Assembly (NCBI RefSeq): GCF_000337835.1
Contig: NZ_AOLM01000008.1
Coordinates: 248,001 to 312,000, forward strand
Direction: 5' to 3'
DNA length: 64,000 nt
Source: Haloferax sulfurifontis ATCC BAA-897
GTDB taxonomy: Archaea; Halobacteriota; Halobacteria; Halobacteriales; Haloferacaceae
In this document: piece after piece, positions 7,217-64,000 of the stretch
Position numbering within the stretch: the first letter of the stretch is position 1
How the letters are laid out: every line of letters begins with the position of its first letter
Program-made: the position numbers and the translations under genes
Notes under the pieces: generated by a model
The model's input: only the letters and a program-made list of their open reading frames with translations
What the model was told of the DNA's origin: nothing
The model's database searches: none

Positions 7217-7237
7217 GTTCTACGGTAATGTTTTACA

Positions 7238-43756: not shown

Positions 43757-45013
43757 ATGCCGAGTGAGCGTCCGGAGCGGACGGGTTCGGCCGGAAGCCG
43801 GGAGCAAACCGTCACCCGCCGCGAGGTGCTCGGGACGCTCGCGGCCGTCGGCTCGCTCTCCGTCGCCGGCTGTAGCTCGATTCCCGGACTCGGCGGGAGA
43901 CGACCGGTCTGGCGACGCGATATCGACGGGGCGTTCATGGCCGGCCCGCCCGCCGTCACCGACGAACTGGTCCTCGCCGGGATGCAGGACAAGGCGCTGT
44001 ACGGCCTGCGACGCGAGGACGGATCGACCACACTCCGGTTCGAGACGGGCGGCCCGATAGAGACGCGACCCGTCGCTCCGCCGTCCGGCGGCCCGTACCA
44101 CGTCCACAGCACCGACGGCGACCTCTACGCCGTCGATGCGGCGGGCGAGGAACTGTGGCGCGACGAGGGCACGGCGCGCCGGGCGCGACTCGTCCGCACC
44201 GGGTCGCTCGTCGCCGAACTCGACTTCGCGGGCTCCGAGAACACGCTCACGGGCTACGACCCGCAGACCGGCGACCGACGCTTCGAACGGGCGGTTTCGT
44301 CGTACTTCCTCGACGGCGTCACCGACGACTCGTTCGTGGTGCCCGTGCCGGCGGGCGGGAGCGAATCGCGCGTCGTCTCGCTCTCGCCGGCGGACGGGAG
44401 CGTTCGATGGCGGACCGAGCCCCGGCGGTGGTATTCCAACGTGGCCGCGGACGTCCGACTCGCCGCCGCCGCGAGAGACGGGACGCTGACGGCCTACGAA
44501 CTCTCCGACGGGAGCGTTCGGTGGCACGTCCCCATCGGCGACGTGGGGCGGACGATGGTGCTCGGGTCGCAGACGTACCTCACCCGCGACCGGGAAGACG
44601 GGCGGCAGGAACTGCTCGCGTTCGACCGGGAGACGGGCGAGCGCCTGTGGGCGAACCCCACGGGCTACCAGATTCGGGCGGTCGAGGCCACGGACGACGC
44701 GGTGTTCGTCGGGAGCCGCGTCGACGACCCCGACGGCGGGATGCTCGGCCGAATCGACTGCTTTGACCTCGACGGCACGCGGCGGTGGCAGACCGTAACC
44801 GGACTCCCGTCGCTGGACTCGCTCGCCGTCACGGGTTCCCACGTCGTCGCCGGCTGGGACCGGGGCTTCGAGGTGCTTTCCCGGAAGACGGGCGAGACGC
44901 GGTGGTCGTACGAACCGGACTCGCACAGCCGACTCTCTCTCCGCGTCGAGCCGTCGTCGGTGTTCGTCTCGTACGTCGAAGAGGGCGCAGTCGCGCGGTT
45001 CCCGCTGGACTGA
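43757..45013 (+). CDS. PQQ-type beta-propeller lipoprotein
   Basis: A 418-residue protein with an unusually long hydrophilic lead (about 20 residues) before the Tat motif TRREVLGT; the lipobox VAGC lies near residue 38. Blade signatures include AVDAAGEELW, AYELSDGSVRW, AFDRETGERLW and VLSRKTGETRW. It is cotranscribed with the preceding propeller gene. A start closer to the twin arginines is possible but has no ATG or GTG in a better position. Confidence 0.87.
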   Translation: MPSERPERTGSAGSREQTVTRREVLGTLAAVGSLSVAGCSSIPGLGGRRPVWRRDIDGAFMAGPPAVTDELVLAGMQDKALYGLRREDGSTTLRFETGGPIETRPVAPPSGGPYHVHSTDGDLYAVDAAGEELWRDEGTARRARLVRTGSLVAELDFAGSENTLTGYDPQTGDRRFERAVSSYFLDGVTDDSFVVPVPAGGSESRVVSLSPADGSVRWRTEPRRWYSNVAADVRLAAAARDGTLTAYELSDGSVRWHVPIGDVGRTMVLGSQTYLTRDREDGRQELLAFDRETGERLWANPTGYQIRAVEATDDAVFVGSRVDDPDGGMLGRIDCFDLDGTRRWQTVTGLPSLDSLAVTGSHVVAGWDRGFEVLSRKTGETRWSYEPDSHSRLSLRVEPSSVFVSYVEEGAVARFPLD

Positions 45014-45110
45014 CTCCGCGTTCCCGGCCCCTGCCCTGATTCGACGACGTACTCCCCACCAACTTATTGCCGTGCCGAGGGGATACTGCGCCAACGAGGA
45101 GCACGAACCG

Positions 45111-46120
45111 ATGGACGACACACGCCGCGCGTCTCCGCTGAAGCGCCTCGTCGAATCAGTCGAGACCCGAGCCGACGAGGAGGTGAGCGACTCTCTCGGG
45201 GCGCTCCGGACGGCGTCGGCCGAGGACCGCAAACAGGCCCTCCGCGAGCTTCGAGGCCTCGCGGACGACCGGCCGATCGCGTTCGAGTCGTTCCTCCCCG
45301 CCGTCACGCCCTTTCTCACCGACGACGACCGCGCCGTCCGGCTGTTGACCGCGAAGGCGCTCGTCGCGGTCGCGGAGGCCGCTCCCGATGCGGCCGCTCC
45401 CGCGGTTCCGGCGCTCGCCGAGCGCCTCGCCGACGAAGACGAGTTCTACTACGTCCGCGCTCGGTCGGCCGAGGCGCTGGGCTACGTCGCGCTCGAACAC
45501 CCCGACGCGGTCGCCTCGCCGGAGATGCTCGCGGACCTCCGCGTCGGTCTCTCGTTCGACGAACCCGAGGTGAAACGGAAGCTGGCGAAGGCGCTCGAAT
45601 GCGTGGCGCTCGGCGACCCCGGTCGACTTCGCCACCGCGTCTCGACGCTCGTCGAACACCTCGACGACCCGGACGTACTCGTCAGATACCACCTCTGTAC
45701 GGCGATGGCGGCCATCGGCTGTGACGCCCCGGACTCGCTCGGCGCGGGTCGGTCGGCGCTCTCCGCTCGGCTCGCCGACGAGAACGCCTTCGTCCGGGGC
45801 GCGCCGCCGAGGCACTCGGGCTGTTGGCCCGCGAGCGCGGCGAGTCGGTGACGGTTCCGGACTCGGTACTCGATACGGAGTCAGACGCGGCGGCCGAGTT
45901 CGTCGCCGAGCGGGTCCGCTTTCTCCGGGCGTCGGGTGACGGCGATGGCAGTGACTCGCCGGCCGACGGCGTCGGGACGCTCGCCGGCGTTCGAGACACG
46001 ACCGCGTCCGCGGTCGCCGAGATTACGTCGCCCGACGCGGACGTGGAGTGTCCCCATTGCGGTGTCGACCTCCCCGAGGGAGCGCCGCCGATGTGTCCGA
46101 GTTGCGGCGTTCCGTACTGA
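45111..46120 (+). pseudogene. HEAT-repeat/zinc-ribbon protein gene with a frameshift
   Basis: Two overlapping frames encode one protein. The first (from MDDTRRASPL) gives about 230 residues of HEAT-like helical repeats (LLTAKALVAVAEAAPDAA, ARSAEALGYVALEHPDAV). It then runs into a non-homologous tail at about 45800. The other frame continues the expected repeat (RAAEALGLLARERGES) and ends in a zinc ribbon CPHCGVDLPEG...CPSCGVPY. Restoring one missing C in the GTCCGGGGCGCG run would rejoin them. Either a true inactivating deletion or a sequencing error. It lies 97 bp after the propeller operon. Confidence 0.8.
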
Positions 46121-46150
46121 GTTGACCGTCTCGCCCTCCGTGCGCCGTGT

Positions 46151-48325
46151 TCACGCCCGGCCGTCGGCGAAGTCGACGCCCGTGATTTCGAAGCGAGTGC
46201 CTCCCTCGGCGGACTCGGTGACGCGGACCTCCCAGCCGTGGGCTTCCGCCACCTGCTTGACGATGGCGAGACCGAAGCCGGTCCCCGAGCGCGAGGTGGT
46301 GTACCCGGCCTCGAAGACCGTGTCGAGGTGGTCGGCCGAGATACCGTCGCCGTCGTCGGCGACGTAGAAGCCGTTCGGGAGGTCGCCGACCGTCACCGTC
46401 ACGCCCGGGCCGCCGTGCTCGACCGAGTTACGGACGAGGTTCTCGATGAGTTGCTGGAGCCGGCTCCGGTCGGCGACGACGGTCGTCGTCAGGTCGTTTC
46501 GGAGGTCGGCGTCCGCCGTCTCGACGGTCCGCCAGCAGTCGTCGACGAGCGACGACAGCGCCACGGTTTCGCAGTCGCCGACGTCGTCGCCCTCGCGGGC
46601 GAGCGTCAGCAGGTCGTCGATGAGGTCACCGATGCGGTCGAGCGCCTCCGCGGCGGTGGCGAGTCGGTCGCTGTCGTGTTCCTCGCGCGCCAGCTGAACG
46701 TTGCCGGTGGCGACGTTCAGCGGGTTCCGCAGGTCGTGGCTGACGACGCTGGCGAACTCGCTCAGCCGCTCGTTTTGCCGCTGGAGCTGTCGTTCGCGCT
46801 CGCGCTGTTCGGTCGTGTCGCGGTACATCCAGAGGTGGCCGGTCCCCTCGGGCAGTTCGATGGGTTCGTAGCTTCGGGCGAGCGTCCGGCCGCGCGCCAG
46901 TTCGACCGACTCGGAGTAGTCGGATTCGGACCCGGATATCAGTTCGTCGACGCGCTCGACGAAGCCCTCGGGGTCGGTGGTGAGTTCGCCGGCCTCTCGC
47001 GCCAGTTTCCGACAGTCCGCGTCGACGAGCTCCGCGGGTGACTCCTGGATGTCGAACAGTTCGAGCAGTCGGTCGTTGACCGCGAGGACGGTCCGGTCGC
47101 TGTTCTCGGCGAGGACCCCGACCGGGAGCGCCCCGACGAGCGTCGAAAGCAGGACGTTGGTCCGTTCGAGTTCGTCTTCGTGGTCGACGCGCTCGGAGAT
47201 GTCGCGGCTGATGGCGACGAAGCGGTCCTCGCCGGCGAGGTCGAGCCGGCGGACGTGGACCTCGACCGGGAACGTCGAGCCGTCCTTGCGGGTGTAGGCG
47301 CCCTCGATCCGCCGCCTGTCGCCTTGCTCCATGTCGTTCCAGATGTCCGTGGCTCGCTCGGCGCCCAGCGTTCGGTCCAGGTCCCAGACCTTCATCTCGG
47401 TGAGTTCCGCGGCGCTGTAGCCGGTCGCCTCGCACAGTTGGGGGTTCGGGTCGAGGATGTCGCCGTCGACGTTGTGGACGTTGACCATGTCGGGCGACTC
47501 CTCGAAGAGCGCGGTGACCCGCGCCGTCGTCTCCCGGAGTCGCGCCTCGCGCTCGATGCGCTCGGTCACGTCCTGAAACAGCGAGAAGACCGCCACGACC
47601 TCGCCGTCGTCGTCGGTGACGACGCGGTTGTGCCACTCGCAGTGGATGTGTTCGCCGTCCTTTCGGACGTTCTCGTCGACGCTGTGGTAGCCGCCGGTGT
47701 CCGTGGCGAGCTGGTCCGTGACGGTGTCGACGTTGTCGTAACTGCCTTCCGTGACGATGGCCTCCCAGGTGTGGCCGCGCAGTTCCGCCTCGGAGTAGCC
47801 GAGAACATCTTCCGCACGCTCGTTGAGGCCGACGATGCGGAAGTCGCTGTCGTACTCTAAGACGCCGAGAGGCGACTGTTCGATGAACAGGGAGAGCCGT
47901 TGTTCGCTCGCCTCGAGCGCGCGCTGTGAGCGGTACTGTTCGACGGCGTTCTCGATACGGTTGGCGAGGACGGTGTACTGGCTGGTCCCGTGTTCCTTCT
48001 GGAGGTAGTCGGTGACGCCCGCGGAGATGGCGTCGCTCGCGACCTCCTCGCTTCCTTTGCCAGTAAAGAGGATGAACGGGAGGTCTGGGGCGTCCTCGCG
48101 GAGGGCTTCGAGGAAGTCGAGACCGTCGAGGCTTGGCATGTCGTAGTCCGAGACGACGCAGTCGAACTCCTCGTCGGCAAGTCTGTCGAGTCCCGCCGCC
48201 ACCGACGTTTCGGTCTCGACCCGGAACCGGTCGTGCATCCGTTCGAGGAACGCGGCCGCCAACTCCGCGAAGGCCTCGTCGTCGTCGACGTGCAGGACGG
48301 CCACCTCGTTCACCGTCTCACTCAT
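46151..48325 (-). CDS. Receiver-PAS-PAS-PAS hybrid sensor histidine kinase
   Basis: A 724-residue cytosolic signalling protein with no membrane segment. Order: receiver domain (about 7-125; acidic DDD at 14-16, phosphoacceptor D60 in VVSDYDMP, K near 110), three PAS domains (about 145-255, 270-385 and 395-500), HisKA with H530 in SHDLRNPLN, and HATPase (N-box NLVRNSVEHG, DDGDGI, GTGFGLAI). The receiver-first layout is common in haloarchaea and suggests it is itself regulated by another kinase. No response-regulator gene is adjacent. Confidence 0.93.
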   Translation of the reverse strand: MSETVNEVAVLHVDDDEAFAELAAAFLERMHDRFRVETETSVAAGLDRLADEEFDCVVSDYDMPSLDGLDFLEALREDAPDLPFILFTGKGSEEVASDAISAGVTDYLQKEHGTSQYTVLANRIENAVEQYRSQRALEASEQRLSLFIEQSPLGVLEYDSDFRIVGLNERAEDVLGYSEAELRGHTWEAIVTEGSYDNVDTVTDQLATDTGGYHSVDENVRKDGEHIHCEWHNRVVTDDDGEVVAVFSLFQDVTERIEREARLRETTARVTALFEESPDMVNVHNVDGDILDPNPQLCEATGYSAAELTEMKVWDLDRTLGAERATDIWNDMEQGDRRRIEGAYTRKDGSTFPVEVHVRRLDLAGEDRFVAISRDISERVDHEDELERTNVLLSTLVGALPVGVLAENSDRTVLAVNDRLLELFDIQESPAELVDADCRKLAREAGELTTDPEGFVERVDELISGSESDYSESVELARGRTLARSYEPIELPEGTGHLWMYRDTTEQRERERQLQRQNERLSEFASVVSHDLRNPLNVATGNVQLAREEHDSDRLATAAEALDRIGDLIDDLLTLAREGDDVGDCETVALSSLVDDCWRTVETADADLRNDLTTTVVADRSRLQQLIENLVRNSVEHGGPGVTVTVGDLPNGFYVADDGDGISADHLDTVFEAGYTTSRSGTGFGLAIVKQVAEAHGWEVRVTESAEGGTRFEITGVDFADGRA

Positions 48326-48351
48326 AGCTGTTCTCCGTGAAAGTTCGACGG

Positions 48352-48366
48352 GAGATACTTAACCGT
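48352..48366 (-). promoter_or_regulatory. Promoter of the histidine kinase gene
   Basis: On the minus strand CACGGTTAAGTATCTCC lies about 30-40 nt before the ATG; TTAAGTAT is a good TATA-like element in GC-rich surroundings. Confidence 0.45.
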
Positions 48367-48975
48367 GACTGGCCGGCCGCTCAGTCGGAGACGCCGACGT
48401 TTCGCCTCGGTGAACTGTTCGCTCGACTCGCGGGCGGTCCCGGATATCCGGACGAGTTCCACCACCGGCGTCTCGGACTCGTCGCCCCGACGGTTGCGGT
48501 AGATGGTCGTTTCGCTCGCGCATGCGGTCGAACTTTCACCGCCGGACGGGCGACGTAGCGACGGCGTTCGACGTCGAATCAATATTATCAGTATACGATT
48601 ATGTATAGTTAAATATACGTAAAATGACTATTATTCGGCTCGGTTTTCCTCGGCGTGTTCGGCGCTGGTTCACGTTTCGTGATACCCGCGTTACGACAGA
48701 GGCCTGTGCGGGTCGAACTCACTTTCGGGGTTGCGTGAGGCCGACGAGACGACTTTCACGGGATAGTTTATCTCGACTCAGATTGGCGCGTGGGCCACCT
48801 TTCGACCAGAATCGTGGGTGAAAGGGAGTCGTGACGGCCTCTGTCGCGGCGGACGGTCGGGGCTGGTATCCATCGAGACGAATCGGGTCTCGCCGACGCA
48901 CCCCCTCCGAACCACGCCCGTTTGAGTGTCGCTCGTCTCCGACGACACACGGTTGACGAGGCGGCGCTTGTCTCC

Positions 48976-48997
48976 AATACTATCAGATAACAGTATT
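48976..48997. repeat. AT-rich inverted repeat AATACT-N10-AGTATT
   Basis: Perfect 6-bp arms in an AT-rich patch that continues TATATATG, about 180 bp upstream of the dehydrogenase gene. Both this patch and the one at 48578-48600 contain TATCAG next to an A/T run. It could be an operator or a remnant of a mobile element end. Confidence 0.35.
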
Positions 48998-49179
48998 ATA
49001 TATGTGTCTGTCTGTTTCGCCCCGAAAAGCGACGAGCGAGCAAGTGAAACGGCGCGGGCGTCACCCCAACTGTTCTCGCTCATTCGTCGCGTACTCGCCC
49101 CGCCTGTGGTCTGGCGTCCGCGATACTGGGATGACATCCCCGTACAACTATACTAATTGCCAGCAATCACCATGGTACG

Positions 49180-50241
49180 ATGCGCGCAGTAACTTTCACA
49201 ACTCCCGGTGAGCCGCTCGAAATTCGGGAGGTCGACGAACCGGGACTAGACGAGGCGGGTGTCATCGTGGAGACGGAGGCGTGCGGAATCTGCCGAAGCG
49301 ACTGGCACGCGTGGCAGGGCGACCCGCTCTGGGAGTCTCGGGATTTCGACGACGGACACGTCTTCGGTCACGAACCGGCCGGCGTCGTCGTCGAGGTCGG
49401 CGACGAGGTTGAACACGTCCGCGAAGGCGACCGAGTGACAGTCCCCTTCAACCTCGGCGACGGGACGTGTCCGTCCTGTCGTTCGGGTCACTCGAACGTC
49501 TGCGATAACCGGGTCCCGCTCGGACTCGCACCCGAGGCCAACGGGGCCTTCGCCGAACGATTCCACGTACCGTGGGCGGACTACAACGTCGTCCGGCTCC
49601 CGGACAGCGTCTCGTCGGTCGAGATGGCCGGTCTCGGCTGTCGGTTCATGACCTCGTTTCACGCCCTCGTCCACCGCGCAGACGTCACCGCGGGCGATTG
49701 GGTGGTCGTCTACGGCTGTGGTGGCGTCGGTCTGTCCGCCGTTCACATCGCCGACGCGCTCGGGGCCAACGTCGTCGCCGTCGACCTCTTCGACGAGAAG
49801 TTGTCGTTTGCGCGCGAACTGGGCGCTGTCGAAACGCTCAACGCAAACGACCTCGCTGACGTTCCGTCGGAGGTGCGAGGGCTGACAGACGGCGGCGCTC
49901 ACGTCTCGGTCGACGCCCTCGGAATCGCCGAAACGTGCCAAAACGCGGTCAAGAGCCTCCGAAAGAGAGGTCAGCACGTGCAAGTCGGACTCACGTCGAA
50001 CGAGGAGGGCGGCGAGGTCGCGCTCCCGACGGACCGGATGGTACTCGACGAACTCCAGTTCATCGGTGCGGTCGGGATGCCTCGACCGCGGTACGACGAA
50101 ATCTTCAGAATGATGGACCGTGGTGCGCTCGAACCGGCGGCAGTGATATCCGAGATGGTGTCTCTCGACCAGACCCCCGAGATACTGGCTTCGATGACGG
50201 ACTTCGACACCGTCGGAATCCCAGTGATTGACACGTTCTGA
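49180..50241 (+). CDS. Zinc-dependent alcohol dehydrogenase family protein
   Basis: A 353-residue medium-chain dehydrogenase. The catalytic zinc site is C38 in CGICRSDWH plus the GHE motif near 67. The structural zinc loop CPSCRSGHSNVC has only three cysteines (near 99-110), where four are usual, so the second site may be altered. The cofactor loop is GCGGVGLSA near 182. It opens the second sugar locus and could oxidise a polyol or reduce an aldehyde. Confidence 0.88.
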   Translation: MRAVTFTTPGEPLEIREVDEPGLDEAGVIVETEACGICRSDWHAWQGDPLWESRDFDDGHVFGHEPAGVVVEVGDEVEHVREGDRVTVPFNLGDGTCPSCRSGHSNVCDNRVPLGLAPEANGAFAERFHVPWADYNVVRLPDSVSSVEMAGLGCRFMTSFHALVHRADVTAGDWVVVYGCGGVGLSAVHIADALGANVVAVDLFDEKLSFARELGAVETLNANDLADVPSEVRGLTDGGAHVSVDALGIAETCQNAVKSLRKRGQHVQVGLTSNEEGGEVALPTDRMVLDELQFIGAVGMPRPRYDEIFRMMDRGALEPAAVISEMVSLDQTPEILASMTDFDTVGIPVIDTF

Positions 50242-50327
50242 CGGCGGAGCGCGAACCGAGGTGCTGGCAAACGCGCCCTCCGTGCGCCACACCGACAACA
50301 GAGCCCACCTTCGTCAGGCCGAATCGA

Positions 50328-51179
50328 CTACTCTGGAATCCCGTACACCTCCCGAGACCAATCTCGTTCGAGCGTATCGTAGACCGGTTGGTTCCGGTCC
50401 AACTCGTCGATACGTCGTTGGTCTTCCGTATCGAGTTCCCAGTCGAACAGCGCACCGTTTTCGGCGATGTGCGTCGCGGAACTCGATTTCGGTAGGACGA
50501 CGATGTCCTTCTCGACGGCCCACTTGAGGACGATTTGCGCGGGAGATCTGTCGTACGTCTCTGCGATATCCTGAATCGTCGAATCTTGGAGCACCTTCGT
50601 CCGCCCGAGCGGTGCGGCCGCTTCGACGGCCACCCCGTTCGACTGGCAGTAGTCGACCAAATCGCGCCGCTGGAACCACGGATGGAACTCGATCTGATTG
50701 ACGGCGATGGGGACGTCGGTGACGTGCAGCGCGTTACTAAGCTGATAGCCGCTGAAGTTGGATACGCCGACGTTGCGCACCTTCCCGTCGTCGGAGAGCG
50801 TCTTCATCGCGTCGAGCGTCTCTCGGAGCGAAATCGCCGGGTTCGGCCAGTGAATCAGATACAAATCGAGATAGTCGGTGCCGAGTCTGTCGAGCGAGTT
50901 CTCACACGACTCGATGACGCTCTCGTAGTTGAGGTTCGCCGGCAGTACCTTCGACGTGAGAAACAGGTCTTCGCGGTCGTAGTCCGCGAGCGTCTCACCG
51001 ATTTCGCCCTCGTTTTGATATCCCTCGGCCGTGTCGACGTGGGTGTAGTCACCGTCGAGTGCGGCGCGTACAGACGCGCGAACGGTCGCGCCATCGATAT
51101 CCCACGTTCCGAGGCCGACCTTCGGAAGGTCGTCCCCGCTTGGAAGTCTGACAGTCAAACTCGTCATCGGACCGTACAT
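50328..51179 (-). CDS. Aldo/keto reductase
   Basis: A 283-residue NAD(P)H-dependent (alpha/beta)8-barrel reductase. The catalytic tetrad is visible: Asp and Tyr in HVDTAEGYQNE, Lys in LTSKV and His in LIHWP. The cofactor segment near the C-terminus reads VLPKSSSATH. A second in-frame ATG 12 nt later (MTSLTV) may be the real start. It is divergent from another aldo/keto reductase across 130 bp; the paired enzymes probably act on sugars or aldehydes of the same pathway. Confidence 0.9.
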   Translation of the reverse strand: MYGPMTSLTVRLPSGDDLPKVGLGTWDIDGATVRASVRAALDGDYTHVDTAEGYQNEGEIGETLADYDREDLFLTSKVLPANLNYESVIESCENSLDRLGTDYLDLYLIHWPNPAISLRETLDAMKTLSDDGKVRNVGVSNFSGYQLSNALHVTDVPIAVNQIEFHPWFQRRDLVDYCQSNGVAVEAAAPLGRTKVLQDSTIQDIAETYDRSPAQIVLKWAVEKDIVVLPKSSSATHIAENGALFDWELDTEDQRRIDELDRNQPVYDTLERDWSREVYGIPE

Positions 51180-51309
51180 TCGTCCGCCATCGTATCAATC
51201 TACCCCAGCGCGCGGAGACGAGACTCCCCGCTCCGGATTCGTCCCGGTGGGCCGGCGGGGGCACGCCGACGGCGAAAGAGTTTACTTGCAGATACGGGTG
51301 ATACGTCGT

Positions 51310-52116
51310 ATGGTATCACCTCTGCCACCAATCGGGCTCGGAACGTGGGAAAACGACGACCCGGCGCAGTGCGCCCGGTCGGTCCGGACCGCCATCGAAC
51401 TGGGGTACAGACACGTCGACACCGCAGAGCACTACGGGAACGAATCGGCCGTCGGCGACGGCATCGAGGAAGCCGACGCGCCTCGTGACGAGCTGTTTCT
51501 CGCCACGAAAGTCCACCCGATAAGCGGTGGGCTGACCCACGACGAAGTCCTCGACGAGGCCGACGCGAGCATGGAGCGACTCGGCGTCGACTATCTCGAC
51601 CTCCTGTACGTTCACTGGCCGGTCGGGGAGTACGAGGCCGACGAAACCCTCGGCGCGTTCGAACGCCTCGTCGAAGCGGACCGCGTCCGACACATCGGCG
51701 TGTCGAACTTCGACGTCGACCTCCTCGACGAGGCCCGCGAGGTCCTCGAATCTCCGCTTTTCGCACACCAAGTAGAGATGCACCCGTTTTTGCCGCAACG
51801 TGAGCTCGTCGAAGACGCACAGCGACGCGATTACACGCTCGTCGCGTACTCGCCGCTCGCGCGCGGCGAGGCTCTCACGAACGCGACCATCCGTGACATC
51901 GCCGAACAGTACGGGACGTCGCCCGCGCAGGTGTGTCTCGCGTGGGTGACGAGCCACGAGAACGTCGTCGCGATTCCAAAAGCCACCTCCAGCGCCCACC
52001 TCGAAGACAACCTCGGTGCCGCCGCGCTCGAACTGGACGACGAAGACGTCGCCCGCATCGACGACATCGAACGGCGCACGCGCTTCGTCGAGCGCGACGG
52101 TGCGCCGTGGCAGTGA
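51310..52116 (+). CDS. Aldo/keto reductase
   Basis: A 268-residue paralogue of the divergent reductase. Tetrad residues are in HVDTAEHYGNE, LATKV and VHWP; the cofactor-binding end is AIPKATSSAH. The start at MVSPLPPIGLGTW fits the family; open sequence upstream is not conserved-looking. The two copies flanking one promoter region suggest either divergent specificities (for example sugar oxidation versus aldehyde removal) or a recent duplication. Confidence 0.9.
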   Translation: MVSPLPPIGLGTWENDDPAQCARSVRTAIELGYRHVDTAEHYGNESAVGDGIEEADAPRDELFLATKVHPISGGLTHDEVLDEADASMERLGVDYLDLLYVHWPVGEYEADETLGAFERLVEADRVRHIGVSNFDVDLLDEAREVLESPLFAHQVEMHPFLPQRELVEDAQRRDYTLVAYSPLARGEALTNATIRDIAEQYGTSPAQVCLAWVTSHENVVAIPKATSSAHLEDNLGAAALELDDEDVARIDDIERRTRFVERDGAPWQ

Positions 52117-52620
52117 CCCCTCCGGCGGTCGCCGCAGGGATACTGAGAGACGGTCGCATCGGAGCCACCGGCTTCGTCGTCGGGAGCGTCGACTCCTCCG
52201 ATTAGCGGCGACGCCAATCGGTCGACTCCCCCGTACGCCACCCCGGAGAGCCGTCTGTCTCTCGAAGGGGTCGTGCGACGACCGTCCGAGGCTCCCCCGG
52301 CGGCGGCGCGCCGCCGAGTCGGCGTGCGACGAGAGCGAACGTGTTCGCTGTTCTCCGCGAGCACATCGAAGTTTGTATTACAGGTGTACTTATGTAATGT
52401 CCAGAGGATTGGGCCACCTCGCATCCGGCGATAGTAAACCCCGGTGTAGTGAGCGGCGGCCACGCGGGGCGGTCACAGCGACGGTTCGCTCCGCTACTCC
52501 GGGGAACGGCGCTATCGACGCCGTCGCGTCACTCCGTGGGAACGTTCAGTCGTGTCGAACGTGACTCGAACGCACCGAACACGGGGGACTGGTTAAGTCC
52601 ATGCCGTACGAGACGCTCGT
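52117..52620. other. Gap between the aldo/keto reductase and cupin genes
   Basis: About 500 bp with no supported gene. A short AT-richer patch at 52365-52400 contains the inverted repeat ATTACA-N10-TGTAAT (52377-52398). A 55-codon open frame from 52398 has no family character. With the transporter remnant just downstream, this stretch may be what is left of deleted genes. Confidence 0.4.
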
Positions 52621-52965
52621 ATGGACGTTCAACCGATGACGGACGACGGCGAGGAGGTTCTCGACGGGGTCCACCTCGCACAGCTTGCGACGGGGCGTCA
52701 GGGCAGTGTTCAACACTTCCGTATCGAGTCGGGCGCGCTCGTCGGAACGCACAGCCACGAACACGAACAGATCGGATGGGTGTCGTCGGGGGAGTTGCTG
52801 TTCACGGTCGACGGCGAAGAGTATCTCGTCGGGCCGAACACCTCCTACGTCATTCCGGGAGCGGTCCCACACTCGGCCGAGAACCGCGGCGAGGTCGACG
52901 CCGTCGGTATCGAAGTGTTCTCACCGCCGCGGGTGACACCGCCGTGGGAGGGTGACGACGAATAA
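52621..52965 (+). CDS. Cupin domain protein
   Basis: A 114-residue single-domain cupin. Motif 1 GTHSHEHEQIGWVSSGELLF (about residues 40-59) holds the His/His/Glu metal ligands; motif 2 VIPGAVPHSAEN (about 78-89) holds the last histidine. Such small cupins act as sugar isomerases, lyases or ligand sensors. It sits between sugar genes, so a role on a sugar acid is possible. GGTTAAGT about 30 nt upstream is a TATA-like box. Confidence 0.85.
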   Translation: MDVQPMTDDGEEVLDGVHLAQLATGRQGSVQHFRIESGALVGTHSHEHEQIGWVSSGELLFTVDGEEYLVGPNTSYVIPGAVPHSAENRGEVDAVGIEVFSPPRVTPPWEGDDE

Positions 52966-53401
52966 ACGGGACACTCACCCGAAACTCACTGACCCGCCCC
53001 CGCGGACGAAACCGCGTGAGCTGGGGTTCGACGCCGGACTACGGGAGGAGTTCTTCGAGTTCGGCCTCCCGGTGGACGTCGAGCGGGCGGTCGACGAGTG
53101 GGACGGGTCCCTCGACAGCCTCACGCTCGGCGTGCGTCCCGAGGACCTGAGCGACCTGTCGGTCCTCGACGAGGACGAGTACACCGAAAACAGCACTCTC
53201 GACGCACAGGTGAAAGTCGTCGAGCCGATGGGCTCGGACAAGTTCCTCACGGTGACCTCGAAGACCGACGATGACACGGAGTTCAGCGCCCGCGTCGCCC
53301 CCGAGAGCAGTGTCGAGCCGGGCGAATCGATTTCGCTTTCGGCCACGCTCGACAAGATTCACCTGTTCGACGACGAGACCGGTCAGAACATCACCTACTG
53401 A
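52952..53401 (+). pseudogene. C-terminal remnant of a sugar-importer ABC ATPase (TOBE domain)
   Basis: The frame encodes only the end of a MalK/UgpC-type ATPase: LTLGVRPEDLSDLS, VVEPMGSDKFLTV, ARVAPESSVEPGESISL and DKIHLFDDETGQNI. These match the TOBE region after about residue 240 of a complete ATPase such as the one at 7.2-8.4 kb. All nucleotide-binding motifs are missing. Its apparent start overlaps the cupin gene. It is most simply read as a deletion scar of an importer that once belonged to this sugar locus. Confidence 0.8.
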
Positions 53402-53562
53402 CCGCCGCCGGTTCGTTTTCAGCGGACGTTTCTCTCGTCTCAGCCGCTGGTGAGCACGCACCAGAAACGACGGGCGGGCCGACGACAGCACCCAGCGATA
53501 CCAATCGCGCACCGGACGCCGCAACCGTCCGGAATCGAGACGGACTCCTCCGAGTCCCATGA

Positions 53563-53578
53563 CAACAATTATCATTTT
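53563..53578 (+). promoter_or_regulatory. Promoter of the lut genes
   Basis: CAACAATTATCATTTTCG gives a TATA-like block about 25-30 nt before the ATG at 53598, supporting that start rather than the in-frame ATG at 53559 that would include the box. Confidence 0.5.
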
Positions 53579-53597
53579 CGTCCCGTATGGTACTGCT

Positions 53598-54104
53598 ATG
53601 GCTATCGGTACTATCGGGGCGTTCGAACGGTCGCTTACAGACGTCGGCGTGGAGTTGACGCGCGCGACCCCCGCGACGTTCTCCGAGACGCTCGCGAGCG
53701 TCGTCGACGAACCGGCCGTCGGAACCCCGCTCGGCTTCGACGGCGTCTCGCTGAAGGACACTCCCGTAACGACGGAACTCACGCCGAGAGACCTCACCGA
53801 GGCGCGGACCGGCGTCACGCCAATCGGGCGCACAATCGCACAGTACGGGACGCTCGTCGTCGAGTCGAACGCCGCCGGGAACGAACCCGTCTCGCTTTAC
53901 CCGCCGACACACGTCGGCGTCGTCCGCGAGAGCGACGTTCTCGAGGACGTGACCGAGGCGATGCCGAAGCTCGCCGAGCAGTTTTCCGACGGCGGGTCGG
54001 TCGTCTTCGCCACGGGAGCGAGCGCGACCGGCGATATGGGCGCACTCGTGAAAGGGGTCCATGGACCGAAGACGGTTCGCGTGGTCCTCGTGGAGGGACT
54101 ATGA
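53598..54104 (+). CDS. lutC: LUD-domain protein, LutC-like subunit
   Basis: A 168-residue LUD (lactate utilisation) domain protein, the small subunit of the LutABC L-lactate oxidation complex. The fold is visible as strand VGVELTRATPATF, the TPIGRTIAQYGTLVVES core, PPTHVGVVRESDVL and the late FATGASATGDM. Its stop overlaps the start of the large subunit gene by 4 nt, so they are translated together. The complex would oxidise L-lactate to pyruvate, feeding electrons to the membrane. Confidence 0.88.
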   Translation: MAIGTIGAFERSLTDVGVELTRATPATFSETLASVVDEPAVGTPLGFDGVSLKDTPVTTELTPRDLTEARTGVTPIGRTIAQYGTLVVESNAAGNEPVSLYPPTHVGVVRESDVLEDVTEAMPKLAEQFSDGGSVVFATGASATGDMGALVKGVHGPKTVRVVLVEGL

Positions 54105-56293
54105 GCCTCGAAGAGCGCCGGGCGAAAGCGAGACACATCCGTCACTTACTGGAGACCGAAGGCCGCGCGATTCGCGAGAACACGACCGTGTTCAACGAAG
54201 ACCGCTACGAAGTCTCCGAGAGCTTCGACGGCTACGAGGGGCTCCGCAGTCGGGCGCGCCGAATCAAGGAAGACGCAATCGACCGACTTCCGGAGCTCAT
54301 CGACCGGCTCCGCGAGAGCGTCGAGGCCAACGGCGGCGAGCTCTACGTCGCCGACGACGCGGCGGACGCCAACCGGTACATCGAAGCCGTCGTCGACGAC
54401 GAGGACGCGGACACCGTGGTGAAATCGAAGTCGATGACGACCGAGGAGTTGGACGTCAACGACCACCTCGAAGCCGCCGGCGTCGACGTCTGGGAGACCG
54501 ACCTCGGCGAGTTCGTCCTCCAGGTCGCAGACGAGTCGCCGTCGCATCTCGTCGGCCCCTCGCTCCACCGCTCACAGGAAGACGTCGCTCGACTGTTCAA
54601 CGAACGGTTCGACCCGGACGAGCCGTTCGAGACGGCAGAAGAGCTCACGGCGTTCGCGCGTGATTACCTCGGAACCCGCATTCGCTCTGCAGACGTGGGG
54701 ATGACCGGTGCGAACTTCGTCCTCGCTGATTCGGGCACGATTACGCTCGTCACGAACGAGGGGAACGCCCGCAAGACGGCGGTGACCCCGAACACGCACA
54801 TCGCGGTCGCGGGCGTCGAGAAAGTCATCCCGAGCGCCGACGAACTCCAACCGTTCGTCGAGCTCATCGCGAAGGCGGCGACGGGACAGCCCATCTCCCA
54901 GTACGTCACGATGCTCACCCCGCCCGTGGAGTCGCCGACTATCGACTTCTCTCGGCCGACCGAACCGCTCGGGTCGGGCGACGACGACAGAGCGTTCCAT
55001 CTCGTCCTCGTGGACAACGGTCGGATGGCGATGCGAGACGACGACCAACTGCGCGAGACGCTCTACTGCATTCGGTGCGGGGCGTGCGCGAACTCCTGTG
55101 CGAACTTCCAGCACGTCGGCGGCCACGCCTTCGGCGGCGAGACCTACACCGGCGGTATCGCGACCGGGTGGGAAGCCGGCGTTCACGGACAGGACTCGGC
55201 GGCGACGTTCAACGACTTCTGTACGGGGTGTTCGCGCTGTGCGGACGCCTGCCCCGTAAAAATCGACATTCCGTGGATAAACACGGTCGTCCGCGACAGA
55301 ATCAACCGCGAGTCGGACGAAGACGCCTTCGACTTCCTCGTCGAGGGGCTGACTCCCGATGCGGAGCCGGGGGGTCTCGACGCGCAGAAGCGTCTCTTCG
55401 GGAACTTCGGGACGCTGGCACGGGTCGGGTCGGCGACGGCACCGCTCTCGACCCGACTCGCGGAGCTCGGGCCGGTGCGGTCGGCGATGGAGCGGTTCTT
55501 CGGCGTCGACGCCCGGCGCGACCTCCCGACGTTCGAGCGTGAGACGTTCGCCGACTGGTTCGCCGCACACGACTCGCCGGACAACGACGGGCGCGAGGTG
55601 GTCGTCTACCCCGACGCGTACACCAACTACGTGCTCGTCAACCGGGGGAAGGCGGCGGTGAGGACGCTCGAGGCGCTGGGCGCGCAGGTCGAACTCGCGG
55701 CGCCACAGGAGAGCGGCCGGGCACCGCTCTCACAGGGGATGATACGGACGGCAACCCGGCGGGCGTCCGAGGTGAGTGCCGACCTGACGACGTACATCGA
55801 CGACGGGTTCGACGTCGTGGTCATCGAGCCCTCGGACCTCGCCGCGTTCCGCCGAGAGTACGGGAAGCTCCTCGACGGGGAGACACACGAGCGACTCGCA
55901 GGGAACTCCTACGACGTTATGGAGTACGTCTACGGCTTACTCAACACCGGTGCCGACGCGAGCGTTCTCGCCGAGCCGTCGGAGCCGCTTGCGTACCACA
56001 GCCACTGTCAGCAGCGCACCATCGGCGTCGAGACGTACACCGAGGCCGTCCTGACGGACCTCGGCTTCGACCTCATCACGTCGGACGTCGAGTGCTGTGG
56101 GATGGCGGGGAGCTTCGGCTACAAAAGCGAGTACTACGAACTCAGCATGGACGTCGGGAGCGACCTCGAAGCGCAGTTCGCAGACGCGACCGACCGCACG
56201 CTCGTCGCGAGCGGGACCTCCTGTACCGAACAGCTCGGCGACCTGTTCGAACGGGACGTCGTCCATCCGGTCGAACTCATCGCACCGGAGTAA
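54101..56293 (+). CDS. Fused LutB-LutA-type L-lactate oxidation protein
   Basis: A 730-residue iron-sulfur protein. An N-terminal LUD domain (about 1-300; MTGANFVLADSGTI near 207) is followed by two 4Fe-4S motifs: CIRCGACANSC (C323, C326, C329, C333) and CTGCSRCADACP (C374, C377, C380, C384). The C-terminal third has the CCG-type segments expected of LutA, with HSHCQQR near 630 and ECCGMAGSFGY near 665. So bacterial LutB and LutA are joined in one chain. It acts with LutC. It sits next to sugar genes that should yield lactate or lactaldehyde. Confidence 0.9.
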   Translation: MSLEERRAKARHIRHLLETEGRAIRENTTVFNEDRYEVSESFDGYEGLRSRARRIKEDAIDRLPELIDRLRESVEANGGELYVADDAADANRYIEAVVDDEDADTVVKSKSMTTEELDVNDHLEAAGVDVWETDLGEFVLQVADESPSHLVGPSLHRSQEDVARLFNERFDPDEPFETAEELTAFARDYLGTRIRSADVGMTGANFVLADSGTITLVTNEGNARKTAVTPNTHIAVAGVEKVIPSADELQPFVELIAKAATGQPISQYVTMLTPPVESPTIDFSRPTEPLGSGDDDRAFHLVLVDNGRMAMRDDDQLRETLYCIRCGACANSCANFQHVGGHAFGGETYTGGIATGWEAGVHGQDSAATFNDFCTGCSRCADACPVKIDIPWINTVVRDRINRESDEDAFDFLVEGLTPDAEPGGLDAQKRLFGNFGTLARVGSATAPLSTRLAELGPVRSAMERFFGVDARRDLPTFERETFADWFAAHDSPDNDGREVVVYPDAYTNYVLVNRGKAAVRTLEALGAQVELAAPQESGRAPLSQGMIRTATRRASEVSADLTTYIDDGFDVVVIEPSDLAAFRREYGKLLDGETHERLAGNSYDVMEYVYGLLNTGADASVLAEPSEPLAYHSHCQQRTIGVETYTEAVLTDLGFDLITSDVECCGMAGSFGYKSEYYELSMDVGSDLEAQFADATDRTLVASGTSCTEQLGDLFERDVVHPVELIAPE

Positions 56294-56404
56294 GAGACGG
56301 GTCGGAGCTTCCCGCCACGGAGCGGGTTCCCGCACGATCTCAGGGCTGTGCGTCGCGGCTTCCGCGGGGAAGATTATTGACGGTGGCCCGCGACCATCAC
56401 GACG

Positions 56405-57667
56405 ATGCCTCACTCGAAGTACGAGCATCTCGTAACGGAGATGAACGCAGGAGTCGGATGGCGGAACCTCGCGGACGACGGGCTGTCCCGCGACCCGACA
56501 CGGGACGTCGAGATTACGGCCGTCGACTGCCGAGTGCTCGGCGGGAACTTCCCGTGGAACCTCGTGACCGTCGAGACGGACGCCGGCGTCCGCGGATACG
56601 GTGAAGCGTTCGCCGGACCGGTCAGCGAACACGTCGAGTTCCTTGAAAACGGCCTCGTCGGCGAGAACCCCTACGACGTCGAGCGCCTTACCGAGCACAT
56701 GACCCAGATGCTGTCCGGACTCGCCGGGGGCGAAGGCTACTCGCAGGCGGCGGTGTCCGGTATCGAAACCGCCCTCTGGGACGCCGTCGGGAAGCTCACC
56801 GGCCTCCCAGTCTATCAGTTGCTCGGCGGGAAGTTCCGCGACTCGGTCGCCATCTACTGTGACTGCCACGCGGGCGAACACCTCGGCGAAGGCGGCGACG
56901 ACCCCCACGAAACGTACGACCCGGCCGTGTACGCCGACGTCGCCGAAGCCGTCGTCGGTGAGGGGTTCGACGCGCTGAAGTTCGACCTCGACGTCGCGCC
57001 GGGGGACACTGACACGGCGACGCGTCGCCTCACGAACGCCGCCGTCCAACACAAGGTCGATATCGTGGACGCGATTCGGGAGCGGATTGGGGTGGAGCCG
57101 ACGCTCGCGTTCGACTTCCACTGGAGTTTCACCGTCGAGACGGCCCTTCGACTCGCGCGCAAGCTCGAACCGTACGACCTCGCGTGGATAGAAGACCCCG
57201 TCCCGCCGGAGAGCGCCGACGCGCACCGGCGAGTCACGGCGGGGACGACCACCCCAATCCTCGCCGGGGAGAACCTCGTTCGCACGGAGGGTTTTCTTCC
57301 GTTTTTCGAGGCGGGGGCAATCGACATCGCCGCCCCGGACATCCAGAAGTGCGGCGGGTTGAGCGAGTTCCGGAAGATTGCGACCGTCGCCGACGCGTAC
57401 GACGTGCCAATCACCCCGCACAACGTCGCGAGCCCGCTCGGAACCATGGCGTCCGTCCACGCCTGTGCGACGGTTCCCAACGCGTTCGCGCTCGAATACC
57501 ACGCTCGCGACGTCGACTGGTGGGACGACCTGCACACGGGCGGTCCACTCATCGAAGACGGAGCGATCGCGGTTCCCGAGCGGCCGGGCCTCGGCATCGA
57601 CCTCGACGTCGGCGAGGTAAACGACCGACTCGCCGCCGGCGAAGAACCGCTGGAAGCCGAGGGCTGA
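56405..57667 (+). CDS. Enolase-superfamily sugar-acid dehydratase
   Basis: A 420-residue mandelate racemase/muconate lactonizing protein. It has KFDLD near residue 197, metal ligands in FDFHWSF near 237, WIEDPVP near 262 and AGENL near 288, and the catalytic Asp-His pair in APDIQKCGG and TPHNVASPLG. The last motif is like galactonate/gluconate-type dehydratases rather than the rhamnonate type at 9.7 kb. It probably dehydrates an aldonate. It is the first gene of a three-gene operon with the LarA-like and mannonate-dehydratase-like genes. Confidence 0.88.
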   Translation: MPHSKYEHLVTEMNAGVGWRNLADDGLSRDPTRDVEITAVDCRVLGGNFPWNLVTVETDAGVRGYGEAFAGPVSEHVEFLENGLVGENPYDVERLTEHMTQMLSGLAGGEGYSQAAVSGIETALWDAVGKLTGLPVYQLLGGKFRDSVAIYCDCHAGEHLGEGGDDPHETYDPAVYADVAEAVVGEGFDALKFDLDVAPGDTDTATRRLTNAAVQHKVDIVDAIRERIGVEPTLAFDFHWSFTVETALRLARKLEPYDLAWIEDPVPPESADAHRRVTAGTTTPILAGENLVRTEGFLPFFEAGAIDIAAPDIQKCGGLSEFRKIATVADAYDVPITPHNVASPLGTMASVHACATVPNAFALEYHARDVDWWDDLHTGGPLIEDGAIAVPERPGLGIDLDVGEVNDRLAAGEEPLEAEG

Positions 57668-57707
57668 CGGCGGCAGACTTTTCTTCGAATGTGCAAACGT
57701 AAATCAC

Positions 57708-59060
57708 ATGGTAGACGGTGACAATCGTCGGGACGGACCAGTCCCGATCTCGGAGGCGACTGTTCTCGAAGCGAGCGGCATGGACTCGGTCCCGGAGGTG
57801 GGCATCGTCGAACAGTTGTGGGAGACGGACCCGATTCCGGACGCGGAGCTTCGGGACAGCGTGTTCGACGCCGTCGAACAGCTCGAATTCGACGGGGTAC
57901 CGGACGGCGGCGAAGTCGCCGTCGGGGCGGGGAGCCGGGGTATCGCGAACATTCCGACCATCGTTAGCGCCGTCGTCGACGCGCTCGACGACCGCGGGTA
58001 CGAGCCGTTCGTGTTCCCGGCGATGGGGAGCCACGGGGGTGCCACCGCCGAGGGCCAACGCGAGATGCTCGAAGCGCTCGGGATAACCGAAGAGCGCCTC
58101 GGCTGTGAGATTCGAGCGACGATGGATACGGTCGTCATCGGGAAGACACCGGACCGAGACGTCGAGGTCCACGCGGACGCGAACGCGGCGGCCGCGGACG
58201 CGATAATCCCGGCCAACCGCGTGAAGCCCCACACGGACTTTCGGGGCGACGTGGAGTCGGGGCTCTCGAAGATGCTCGTCATCGGGATGGGCAAACAGCG
58301 CGGCGCGAAAACGGCACACGACTGGGCCGCCGACTGGAGTTTCCGGGAGATGCTCCCCGAAATCGCGCGCCTGCACGTCGAGAACCTCCCGATTGCCGGC
58401 GGCATCGCCATCGTCGAGGACGAACACGACGACACCGCATTCATCGAGGGGGTGCCGCCGTCGGGCTTCTTGGACCGAGAGGCGGAACTCCTCGAACTCG
58501 CCTACGAGCACCTCCCGACCATCCCGTTCGACGAGGTCGACGTGCTCGTGGTAGACCGGATGGGAAAGGACATCTCCGGGGCGGGCATGGACACGAACGT
58601 CATCGGACGAATCGTGTACGGGTTCGAACCGGACCCACCGAAACCGGACATCACTCGGATATTCGTTCGCGGGTTGACGCCGGCCTCCCACGGGAACGGT
58701 TCGGGGCTCGGGTCGGCGGACTTCATCCACGCGGACCTGTTCGAGGAACTGAACTGGAGCGACACGCTGGTCAACGTCCTCACCGCGAGCACCCCGCGGG
58801 CCGCCCGGATTCCGCCGGCCGTCGAAACCGACCGGACCGGTCTCATCGCCTCGCTGTCCACCATCGGCGTGGGGGCCCTCGAAGCCCCGCGCGTCGTTCG
58901 CATTCGCGACACGATGCGTCTCGGCCGCCTCGCCGTTTCGGCACCGCTCATCGAGGAGGCGCGCGACCGCGACGACCTGCGCGTCGTCGAAGAGCCCACA
59001 CCCGTCGAGTTCGAAGACGGGCAGTTCGTCGACGACGTCCTCGAACCGGGCGACCACTGA
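57708..59060 (+). CDS. LarA-like (DUF2088) nickel-pincer epimerase/racemase homologue
   Basis: A 450-residue protein related to lactate racemase LarA. The N-terminal domain has AMGSHGGATAEGQ near residue 105 (a LarA-type catalytic histidine). KPHTDFRGDVESGLSKM near 174-190 holds a second histidine and the lysine that would anchor the nickel-pincer nucleotide, and GAKTAHDW near 203 offers a further histidine. It lies between two sugar-acid dehydratases, so epimerisation at C2 of a sugar acid is more likely than lactate racemisation. Cofactor genes larB, larC and larE are not in this window. Confidence 0.82.
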   Translation: MVDGDNRRDGPVPISEATVLEASGMDSVPEVGIVEQLWETDPIPDAELRDSVFDAVEQLEFDGVPDGGEVAVGAGSRGIANIPTIVSAVVDALDDRGYEPFVFPAMGSHGGATAEGQREMLEALGITEERLGCEIRATMDTVVIGKTPDRDVEVHADANAAAADAIIPANRVKPHTDFRGDVESGLSKMLVIGMGKQRGAKTAHDWAADWSFREMLPEIARLHVENLPIAGGIAIVEDEHDDTAFIEGVPPSGFLDREAELLELAYEHLPTIPFDEVDVLVVDRMGKDISGAGMDTNVIGRIVYGFEPDPPKPDITRIFVRGLTPASHGNGSGLGSADFIHADLFEELNWSDTLVNVLTASTPRAARIPPAVETDRTGLIASLSTIGVGALEAPRVVRIRDTMRLGRLAVSAPLIEEARDRDDLRVVEEPTPVEFEDGQFVDDVLEPGDH

Positions 59061-59110
59061 CGGGGCGGAAGACGAGAAACACTGATAACACTCGAACGAA
59101 ACCGTGTGGT

Positions 59111-60064
59111 ATGGAGCCATCACTCATACTACCGCCGGAGCGCGACGAACGGTGGGACCTCGCGAAACAGGTCGGCGTCGAGACCGCCGTCGTCCACACG
59201 CTTGAAATCGGTGACGGGTCGCGCCCGTGGAAGTACGACGAACTGCTCGCGTTGACTCGGGAGTTTCGCGACTACGGTCTCGACGTCGGGGTTATCGAAG
59301 GCTGTGTTCCGATTTCCGACGACACTCGACTCGGTCGCGACGGTCGCGACGAGGAGATAGAGCGGTTCAAGCAGTACCTTCGACATCTCGGTTCGCTTGA
59401 CGTGCCGGTCGTCGCCTACGACTGGATGGCGGGCAAGCGGTGGGCGCGGACCTCCACGGCGCTCCCCGCCCGCGGTGGGTCGCTGACGACGGCGTACAGT
59501 AACGAGTTCATGGAAGACGCGCCCGAACAGGAACTCGCCCCCGTCCACGCGGACGAGCTGTGGGACGCCCTCGAACATTTCCTCAACGAGGTGGTCCCAG
59601 TCGCCGAGGAGGCGGGCGTGAAGCTCGCGTTGCACCCCGACGACCCGCCGATTGAGAACCTCCGCGGCGTCGACCGAATCGTCACGTCGCCGGAGCACTA
59701 CGAGCGCGTGATGGAGATGTACGACAGCGAACACAACGGAATCACCTTCTGTCAGGGCAACTTCGCCGCGATGGGCGCGGACATCCCGGAGACGATTCGA
59801 CGCTTCGGCGACCGAATCAACTTCGTGCATTTCCGCGACGTCGAGGGAACGAACGAGCGGTTCGTCGAGACGTGGCACGACGAGGGGCCGACCGATATGC
59901 GCGCCTGCATCCAGGCGTACCGCGACATCGGGTTCGACGGGCCGGTTCGACCCGACCACGTCCCGACGATGGCCGGCGAGGAGAACTCGAACCCAGGGTA
60001 CATGACGCTCGGGCGACTGTACGCGACGGGGTACCTGAAAGGCCTGCTAGAGGCGGTCGAGTAA
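59111..60064 (+). CDS. uxuA: Mannonate dehydratase family protein
   Basis: A 317-residue UxuA-type TIM-barrel enzyme, which converts D-mannonate to 2-keto-3-deoxygluconate. Features: VIEGCVPI near residue 60, YDWMAGKRWARTSTALPARG near 107, LALHPDDPPI near 175, FCQGNFAAMG, INFVHFRDVEG and the C-terminal GPVRPDHVPTM with the last metal histidine. It is shorter than the bacterial enzyme (about 390) but complete in motifs. It is the last gene of the dehydratase-LarA operon, convergent with the kinase operon (111 bp). Confidence 0.88.
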   Translation: MEPSLILPPERDERWDLAKQVGVETAVVHTLEIGDGSRPWKYDELLALTREFRDYGLDVGVIEGCVPISDDTRLGRDGRDEEIERFKQYLRHLGSLDVPVVAYDWMAGKRWARTSTALPARGGSLTTAYSNEFMEDAPEQELAPVHADELWDALEHFLNEVVPVAEEAGVKLALHPDDPPIENLRGVDRIVTSPEHYERVMEMYDSEHNGITFCQGNFAAMGADIPETIRRFGDRINFVHFRDVEGTNERFVETWHDEGPTDMRACIQAYRDIGFDGPVRPDHVPTMAGEENSNPGYMTLGRLYATGYLKGLLEAVE

Positions 60065-60175
60065 CGGCCGGACACTCGCGGTGTGACCGCTCTCGACCGA
60101 TGTGAGACGGCGCGTCCACGGGCGCATGCAGGCGAATATCGGATACCTGCACGCAGAACTCAGGTCTGGTTCCGG

Positions 60176-61216
60176 CTAGGCGATTCGGTTGTCGGGGTCC
60201 ACGCCACCGATGAGGCTCTCTATTCCCTCGGCAATCATGCGGGGACCGTTCGTCACGGCGTCGCGCGTCGACCCCGCGGTGTGCGGTGAGAGGACGACGT
60301 TGTCCATTTCGAGGAACGGGTGGTCCTCCGGGAGGGGTTCGGTCTCGAAGACGTCGAGCGCCGCCCCCGCAATCGACCCCGTTCGCAACGCGTCGACGAG
60401 CGCGGCTTCGTCTACGAGCCCTCCACGGGCGGAGTTGACGAGTATCGCGGACTGGTTCATCCGAGCCAACTCGTCTTCGCCGAGCAGTCCCCGCGTCTCC
60501 TCGGTCAGTCGCGCGTGAAGCGTCACGGCGTCCGCGCGTTCGAGCAGGCCGTCGAGCGTCGCGCGTTCGACACCGGCGTCGTCGAACGTCGACTCGTCCT
60601 GATAGGGGTCGTACGCGAGGAGTTCGGGGCCGAACCCCGAGAGCCGTCGGGCGACCTGTTGGCCGATGTTTCCGAACCCGACGATACCGATGGTCATCGC
60701 CTCGATGTCGCGGGGTAACCGGCTCGGGTCGAACTCTTGGCTCCACTCGCCGGCGTGGAGCGCCCTCGTGTGGTGCGGAATCTCGCGGACCGTCGTGAGC
60801 AAGAGGCTGACGGCGTAGTCGGAGACCGCGTTCTTGTTCCGTCCGGGCGCGTGGAGGACGGCGACGTCGTTCGCCTCGGCCGCCTCGACATCGACGTTCT
60901 CGACGCCACCCCGGGCGGCCCCGACGACCTGCAACGAGTCCCCCGCCTCGATTACTGACGCGGAGACGGGCGCTTTGTGCACGACGAGGGCGTCCACGCC
61001 GTCGAGGTGCTCCTCGATTATCGGCGTGTCGTAGGCGGACGGGCCGCGCGACTCCATCTCCATCGTGACCTCCCGGAACCGTTCCGCGGAGACGTCGCCT
61101 TTCCAGTCGATGCGGGAAAACGACACGCCTTCTGATTCGAGGAACGAGGCCGCCTCGTACATGTACTCGCTCGGCTGTTGTGGGTCTCCACAGAGGAGCA
61201 CGGTTTCAATCGTCAT
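60176..61216 (-). CDS. D-isomer-specific 2-hydroxyacid dehydrogenase
   Basis: A 346-residue NAD-dependent enzyme from the ATG giving MTIETVLLCG; an earlier in-frame ATG would lengthen the overlap with the kinase gene. The cofactor domain has GFGNIGQQVARRL near 162-174, VNSARGGLVDE near 250 (catalytic arginine), the glutamate in DVFETEPLP and the histidine in LSPHTAGST. It is the last gene of the aldolase-kinase-dehydrogenase operon, overlapping the kinase gene by 11 nt. It may reduce or oxidise a short 2-hydroxy acid made by the aldolase branch. Confidence 0.88.
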   Translation of the reverse strand: MTIETVLLCGDPQQPSEYMYEAASFLESEGVSFSRIDWKGDVSAERFREVTMEMESRGPSAYDTPIIEEHLDGVDALVVHKAPVSASVIEAGDSLQVVGAARGGVENVDVEAAEANDVAVLHAPGRNKNAVSDYAVSLLLTTVREIPHHTRALHAGEWSQEFDPSRLPRDIEAMTIGIVGFGNIGQQVARRLSGFGPELLAYDPYQDESTFDDAGVERATLDGLLERADAVTLHARLTEETRGLLGEDELARMNQSAILVNSARGGLVDEAALVDALRTGSIAGAALDVFETEPLPEDHPFLEMDNVVLSPHTAGSTRDAVTNGPRMIAEGIESLIGGVDPDNRIA

Positions 61217-62750: not shown

Positions 62751-62755
62751 GGCAC

Positions 62756-63754: not shown

Positions 63755-64000
63755 TGGGTGTCAATCTCACGGTGTGCTGAAATACGTGTCGGATACTGTT
63801 CGAACGTCCCGACGGTCACTGCGCCCGAACCCAGTGGCGACGTCCCGTTCAGCGATGGTGAACACGACCACGGTCTCCCCGCGTCACTGTGTCACATTGC
63901 ATCTCGTCTCCCTCGGTCGATTCGGCTCGTCCGCCCCAATCTCGTTACGGACGTAGAGCTGTAATTCGGACGCCTCTGACTCTGTAGACATCCGTGCGAC
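63755..64000. other. Right-edge region upstream of the aldolase operon
   Basis: About 245 bp that should contain the operon promoter: on the minus strand ACACGTATTTCAGC lies about 25-35 nt before the aldolase ATG. A minus-strand open frame starting at 63991 (MSTESEASEL) runs only 35 codons to a stop near 63884; it could be a truncated gene start but I cannot support it. Confidence 0.35.

Follow-up and report, generated by a model that had tools for sequence, protein, structure and literature searches.

The ATPases of the MalK/UgpC-type CUT1 ABC importers carry an ABC_tran domain followed by OB_MalK and TOBE_2 domains. A haloarchaeal CUT1 importer, the mannitol and sorbitol importer of Haloarcula hispanica, has been described together with an IclR-like activator of uptake genes (PMC11519228). 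That importer is functional, whereas the locus described here holds a relic, and we liken it to the importers below (A and B) by description, not by sequence. Among the papers found on haloarchaeal pseudogenes, ABC transporters, and gene loss, none addresses this locus in its title or the opening of its abstract. The locus lies in a 64,000-nucleotide stretch of the genome of Haloferax sulfurifontis ATCC BAA-897 (G000; the whole stretch is hereafter the window), where a frame of 149 codons with a GTG start (52952–53401, forward strand) overlaps the stop codon of a cupin gene. The fragment shares with the MalK/UgpC-type ATPases a TOBE/OB C-terminus of about 117 residues that includes TOBE_2, and differs from them in having no ATPase (nucleotide-binding) domain, only half of the OB domain, and neither permeases nor a SBP encoded beside it.

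The open frame is weak evidence in itself: in this GC-rich DNA, 98 frames of at least 80 amino acids overlap positions 44000–64000, so the evidence for the fragment is its homology. The Pfam profile TOBE_2 matches residues 59–139 (E 4.1e-7, 30.5 bits, cut-off 21) and is the only Pfam family found at E 0.1, with no match to ABC_tran; the NCBIfam profiles UgpC, GlcV, and MalK match the C-terminal part only, with scores far under their cut-offs. When 59 genomes (G000 and its relatives) were searched, the best match to the fragment outside its own genome was to G020:C5:92751-93134 (77% identity over residues 20–149), which sits within an open frame of 407 codons. Alignment to this intact malK is gapless, with 82% identity in DNA over 53047–53402 and 81% amino acid identity over 117 residues, and bears out the initial annotation, which had read the frame as only the TOBE end of a MalK-type ATPase. 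The comparison with full-length MalK proteins that it proposed places the fragment at roughly their last 117 residues, from about codon 284 of 400. OB_MalK occupies residues 261–317 of the G020 protein, and the fragment covers the second half of it; the gene is thus truncated relative to its full-length orthologues, which in the six annotated relatives have 400–448 codons as called.

The fragment belongs with one type of MalK, which we call type A. Its identity to type-A proteins is 81% in G020, 69% in G335, and 44–58% in G324, G367, G019, and G029, compared with 23–36% to ten other MalK proteins (five of type B, one from the window, one from G300, and three from its own genome). One further sequence, L005, was suspect (17–18% identity, odd composition) and was excluded from these counts. 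A tree of the C-terminal region groups the fragment with G020 and G335 at support values of 86/99, below the mark for strong support, which 3 of the 15 inner branches reach, so the type-A grouping rests mainly on the identities. By these sequence comparisons, the fragment is part of a type-A MalK of which the 3′ third survives (Table 1).

Table 1. Features around the malK fragment, in window positions.
Feature	Position	Strand	Remarks
Gene-free stretch (about 500 bp) upstream of the cupin gene	52117–52620		No importer remnant found
Cupin, left neighbour	52621–52965	+	Homologues near importer A in G019 (65%) and G367 (57%); 1-bp deletion in G212
Junction stretch, cupin stop to malK homology	52966–53046	+	81 bp; shared by G000 and G212, largely lacking in G002
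malK remnant of importer A	53047–53401	+	Matches about codons 284–400 of 400 in G020 malK; covers the OB domain's second half, the TOBE domain, and the stop codon
Right edge of the G000 segment absent in G002	53402–53467	+	From the alignment to G002
LutC-like, LUD-family pair (right neighbour)	53559–54101	+	Pfam/NCBIfam; orthologue 9 kb from importer A in G020
LutB/LdhH-like, LUD-family pair (right neighbour)	54101–56293	+	Pfam/NCBIfam; orthologue 9 kb from importer A in G020
LarA-like nickel-pincer-cofactor-dependent (NPN) isomerase, group 22	57708–59060	+	NCBIfam NF052515, above cut-off
UxuA-type mannonate dehydratase, same catabolic segment	59111–60064	+	Pfam; orthologue next to lut and LarA-like genes in G020 and G300

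A search with the fragment across 391 genomes drawn from the class, a set overlapping the 59 relatives, gave at least 15 matches outside G000 and G212 at E 1e-14, with up to ten candidates per genome scored. Seven of the 15 were annotated, with genes in the fetched loci called by a GC3-based script and similarity, not by a trained gene finder: six are full-length (G020, G019, G335, G324, G367, and G029) and one, in G024, is a lone C-terminus. In all six full-length loci, MalK is the last gene of a set in the order SBP, permease, permease, MalK, hereafter importer A (for G020, assigned with Pfam). The complete four-gene set of G020 (C5:92748-97393) is the closest intact relative found, and orthologues of the lut, LarA-like, and uxuA genes of the window lie in the same region, with importer A 9 kb from lut. 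The lone C-terminus of G024 (L042:11656-12090, equivalent to C1:1432655-1433089 on the reverse strand; 144 codons) holds the start of OB_MalK together with TOBE_2, adjoins a divergently oriented SBP–permease–permease set with a GC3 of about 0.5 versus 0.94, and is probably a remnant that arose independently, in another genus.

The genes flanking the fragment recur near importer A in other genomes. Homologues of the LarA-like protein (46–68% identical to that of the window) adjoin importer A or stand one gene off, within 1.5 kb, in four of the six loci (G019, G324, G367, and G029); the two are 12 kb apart in G020, and the fetched G335 contig has no LarA-like gene. This association suggests that importer A may take up the substrate of the LarA-like enzyme or a precursor of it. 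Cupin homologues lie within about 4 kb of importer A in two of the six loci. The link between importer A and lut is loose: the two are on separate contigs in the G335 draft (110 contigs), and G300, of the same genus as G020, has lut and no importer A. In G300, the slot that importer A fills in G020 is about 140 bp between called genes (C4:67172-67313), a second lineage without importer A.

The rest of importer A was not found in G000 or its nearest relatives. At E 1e-10, its SBP finds no counterpart in G000, G212 (labelled as the same species), G002 (the next relative, of the same genus), or G300, and the best-scoring matches to its second permease in these four genomes reach 35–36%, that of G000 (36%) being the permease of another importer (B, below); some shorter and weaker pieces in G002 reach 41%. 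Neither a full-length malK nor a close permease of importer A was found in G000. The other 12 genomes of the genus, searched with the fragment only, gave best-scoring matches of 35–43%, no closer than other MalK paralogues. From these searches, importer A appears to be missing from the three genomes tested of the species and its nearest relative (G000, G212, and G002), in which it was not found. A small insertion or an assembly error that cut malK alone, the remainder of importer A lying elsewhere in the genome, would need the missing genes to have escaped a draft of 29 contigs that is 99.5% complete; a gene could be missing from such a draft, but the SBP is absent from two further genomes as well, no close second permease occurs in G000, and the left junction is the same in G000 and G212, so that we consider this the least probable of the alternatives weighed here.

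A paralogous importer is intact nearby. Importer B (C8:326774-331446, or L045:14774-19446), just outside the window and 25 kb downstream of the fragment, consists of a SBP, two permeases, and a MalK with both ABC_tran and TOBE_2. Its four proteins are 95–98% identical in G002, and its SBP and first permease are 100% identical in G212, where the fetched stretch ends. Identities are 75–86% to G020, 74–86% to G300 (SBP, first permease, and MalK), and 62–77% to G019. Importers A and B occur together in one region in G020 and G019; in G335, importer A and parts of importer B are on different contigs. The window holds another importer (3726–8419); its MalK and the MalK of importer A share 46% identity. 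The statement that the sugar locus has no transporter of its own is thus correct for the portion of the region inside the window (49–64 kb) and no further; the region as a whole has importer B.

Between the cupin stop codon and the malK homology, the junction stretch is 88.8% identical in G000 and G212 with a single 1-bp indel, and 66 of its 81 bp have no partner in G002. Its likeness to malK is not significant: 239 of 1000 shuffled sequences score as high against G020, and 947 of 1000 against G335. The first 30 or so codons of the frame are therefore of other origin or decayed beyond recognition, and the frame is the end of MalK after about that point. Protein alignments of the fragment to G020, G335, and G019 reach weakly upstream to 52985; an extension of the malK homology beyond 53047 did not reach significance against shuffled sequences and was rejected. 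On the other side, an 88-bp gap in G212 falls within 53402–53558. Matches at the fragment's edges (52950–53060 and 53399–53560) span just 10–22 residues at E 0.003–0.01, in subjects of 95–162 bases, and one of them is a small gene on the opposite strand downstream of the importer A malK in G019; given hundreds of query proteins, we take these short matches as chance and not as importer traces. The gene-free stretch of about 500 bp noted earlier upstream of the cupin gene is real. Importer A proteins do not match it at E 0.05 (best 0.051), nor, at E 0.01, does any gene called in the fetched loci. G000 and G212 share a part of it, around 52131–52306 (about 175–189 bp), that G002 lacks and for which we found no protein homology.

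The genus shows the fragment at three stages: an open frame in G000, a copy broken by frameshifts and internal deletion in G212, and none in G002. G212 aligns to the window at 94% over 21142–53140 and at 96.7% over 53519–64000, and in its copy of the fragment single bases are deleted and most of the TOBE part is lost. The two copies agree at 81.4% of 145 aligned bases and differ by five indels (1, 1, 29, 173, and 6 bp). Twelve flanking genes are 94.8–98.1% identical between the same genomes, and ten of them have no indel; the exceptions are the cupin gene, with a 1-bp deletion in G212, and the FGGY kinase gene, with a 6-bp insertion. Two intergenic intervals are 82.1% and 67.6% identical, comparable with the fragment, which thus diverges like intergenic DNA next to flanking genes that stay well conserved and shows no visible constraint. 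In G002, which aligns at 90–93% in blocks on both sides and at 83% over 52306–52972, the cupin and lutC genes are about 110 bp apart with no fragment between them; this absence could be the ancestral state. The G212 cupin gene (C8:311523-311875) may be decaying too, because it carries the 1-bp deletion and its match starts only at residue 26.

Decay in G000 itself appears recent or slight. The frame is still open, 35 of the 37 positions invariant in five intact MalK proteins are kept, dN/dS is 0.26 between the fragment and G020 (0.19 between G020 and G335), and a relative-rate count gives 11 lineage-unique residues in the fragment versus 5 in G020. The 149 open codons and the retained positions, together with the lone MalK C-terminus of G024, might also be read as signs of a regulatory TOBE/OB protein that functions by itself. 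The initial annotation had named a conserved protein of this kind as the case that would overturn it; we sought one and did not find it. A conserved small protein is not supported by a copy that is broken in G212 and a locus without it in G002, and the G024 copy, beside its divergent, low-GC3 set, looks like a separate remnant. We regard this possibility as very improbable; on the evidence of these sequences, the fragment is a relic and not a small protein.

The surroundings of the fragment constitute a predicted sugar-acid catabolic region. Besides the genes in Table 1, it has a four-carbon-acid-kinase-like/PdxA pair, galactarate/altronate dehydratase domains, an IclR regulator, UxuA- and enolase-family dehydratases, an FGGY kinase, and a class II aldolase. 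A close lutC orthologue is present in 3 of 15 genomes of the genus (G000, G212, and G002), and among the other 12, 11 have homologues of 45–48% and one (G012) has none, so the lut region is accessory. An enolase-superfamily dehydratase gene between lutB and the LarA-like gene (56405–57667) is 98.1% identical in G000 and G212; the corresponding interval has no such gene in G002, G020, or G300, and a single-gene gain is likely.

The restricted distribution of lutC also means that the segment from lut through the LarA-like gene to uxuA may have entered from a relative by recombination, with its left boundary inside malK, such that an intact importer A never stood here. The differing gene order around the region in G000, G020, G300, and G335 and the presence of the enolase-family gene in G000 and G212, set against its absence from the same interval of G002, would fit such an end-point. 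Its left neighbour, though, is not an unrelated gene but a cupin, homologues of which G019 and G367 carry near importer A, and the fragment has diverged from G020 no further (81% identity) than the matching part of the importer B MalK (75%), which a shared inheritance of both and a recent loss would predict; these values are also compatible with the entire region having been transferred together. We consider a recombination end-point unlikely, if clearly less so than a functional small protein, and the frame is a relic whether it arose in this way or by deletion in place.

We favor deletion in place. With a probability of roughly 0.78, the frame would be a non-functional relic of the malK of a four-gene, CUT1-like importer A that was lost by deletion at this spot and then decayed. 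Importer A would have stood between the cupin and lut genes in an ancestor of G000, G212, and G002; a deletion, of about 4.3 kb if the operon resembled that of G020, would have removed the genes for the SBP and the two permeases along with the first 283 or so codons of malK, so that the remainder came to adjoin the cupin gene, and this remainder would then have eroded stepwise to the states seen in the three genomes. We count it in favor of loss at this spot that both flanks of the fragment, the cupin on one side and the LarA-like and lut genes on the other, accompany importer A elsewhere. The loss may have been tolerable because the paralogous importer B was kept in the same catabolic region. 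Neither G212 nor G002 nor any of the six annotated loci of importer A shows cupin, importer A, and lut in that order, and none of them holds an intact importer in the slot from the aldo/keto reductase to lut, where the initial annotation had proposed to look in related strains. Of the earlier proposal that the frame is the scar of a deleted importer, the part that stands is a MalK relic of a complete importer whose SBP is undetectable at E 1e-10 in G000, G212, and G002; the deletion in place is inferred from parts.

It is possible, though we put it at somewhat below even odds, that the paralogous importers A and B both go with a single sugar-acid catabolic region in haloarchaea and that importer A has been lost repeatedly and importer B kept, as the scar in G000 and G212 and the absence from G002 and G300 would suggest, either because the two importers are redundant or because some lineages abandoned the substrate of importer A. 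The fragment is ordinary gene decay caught half-way and leaves general views unchanged, and it provides a small series of gene decay within one genus. It also corrects the metabolic reading of the region, which has uptake and retains one importer of a pair that relatives carry together, and it ties importer A, as yet uncharacterised, to a group 22 LarA-like isomerase, which hints at what the importer may transport.
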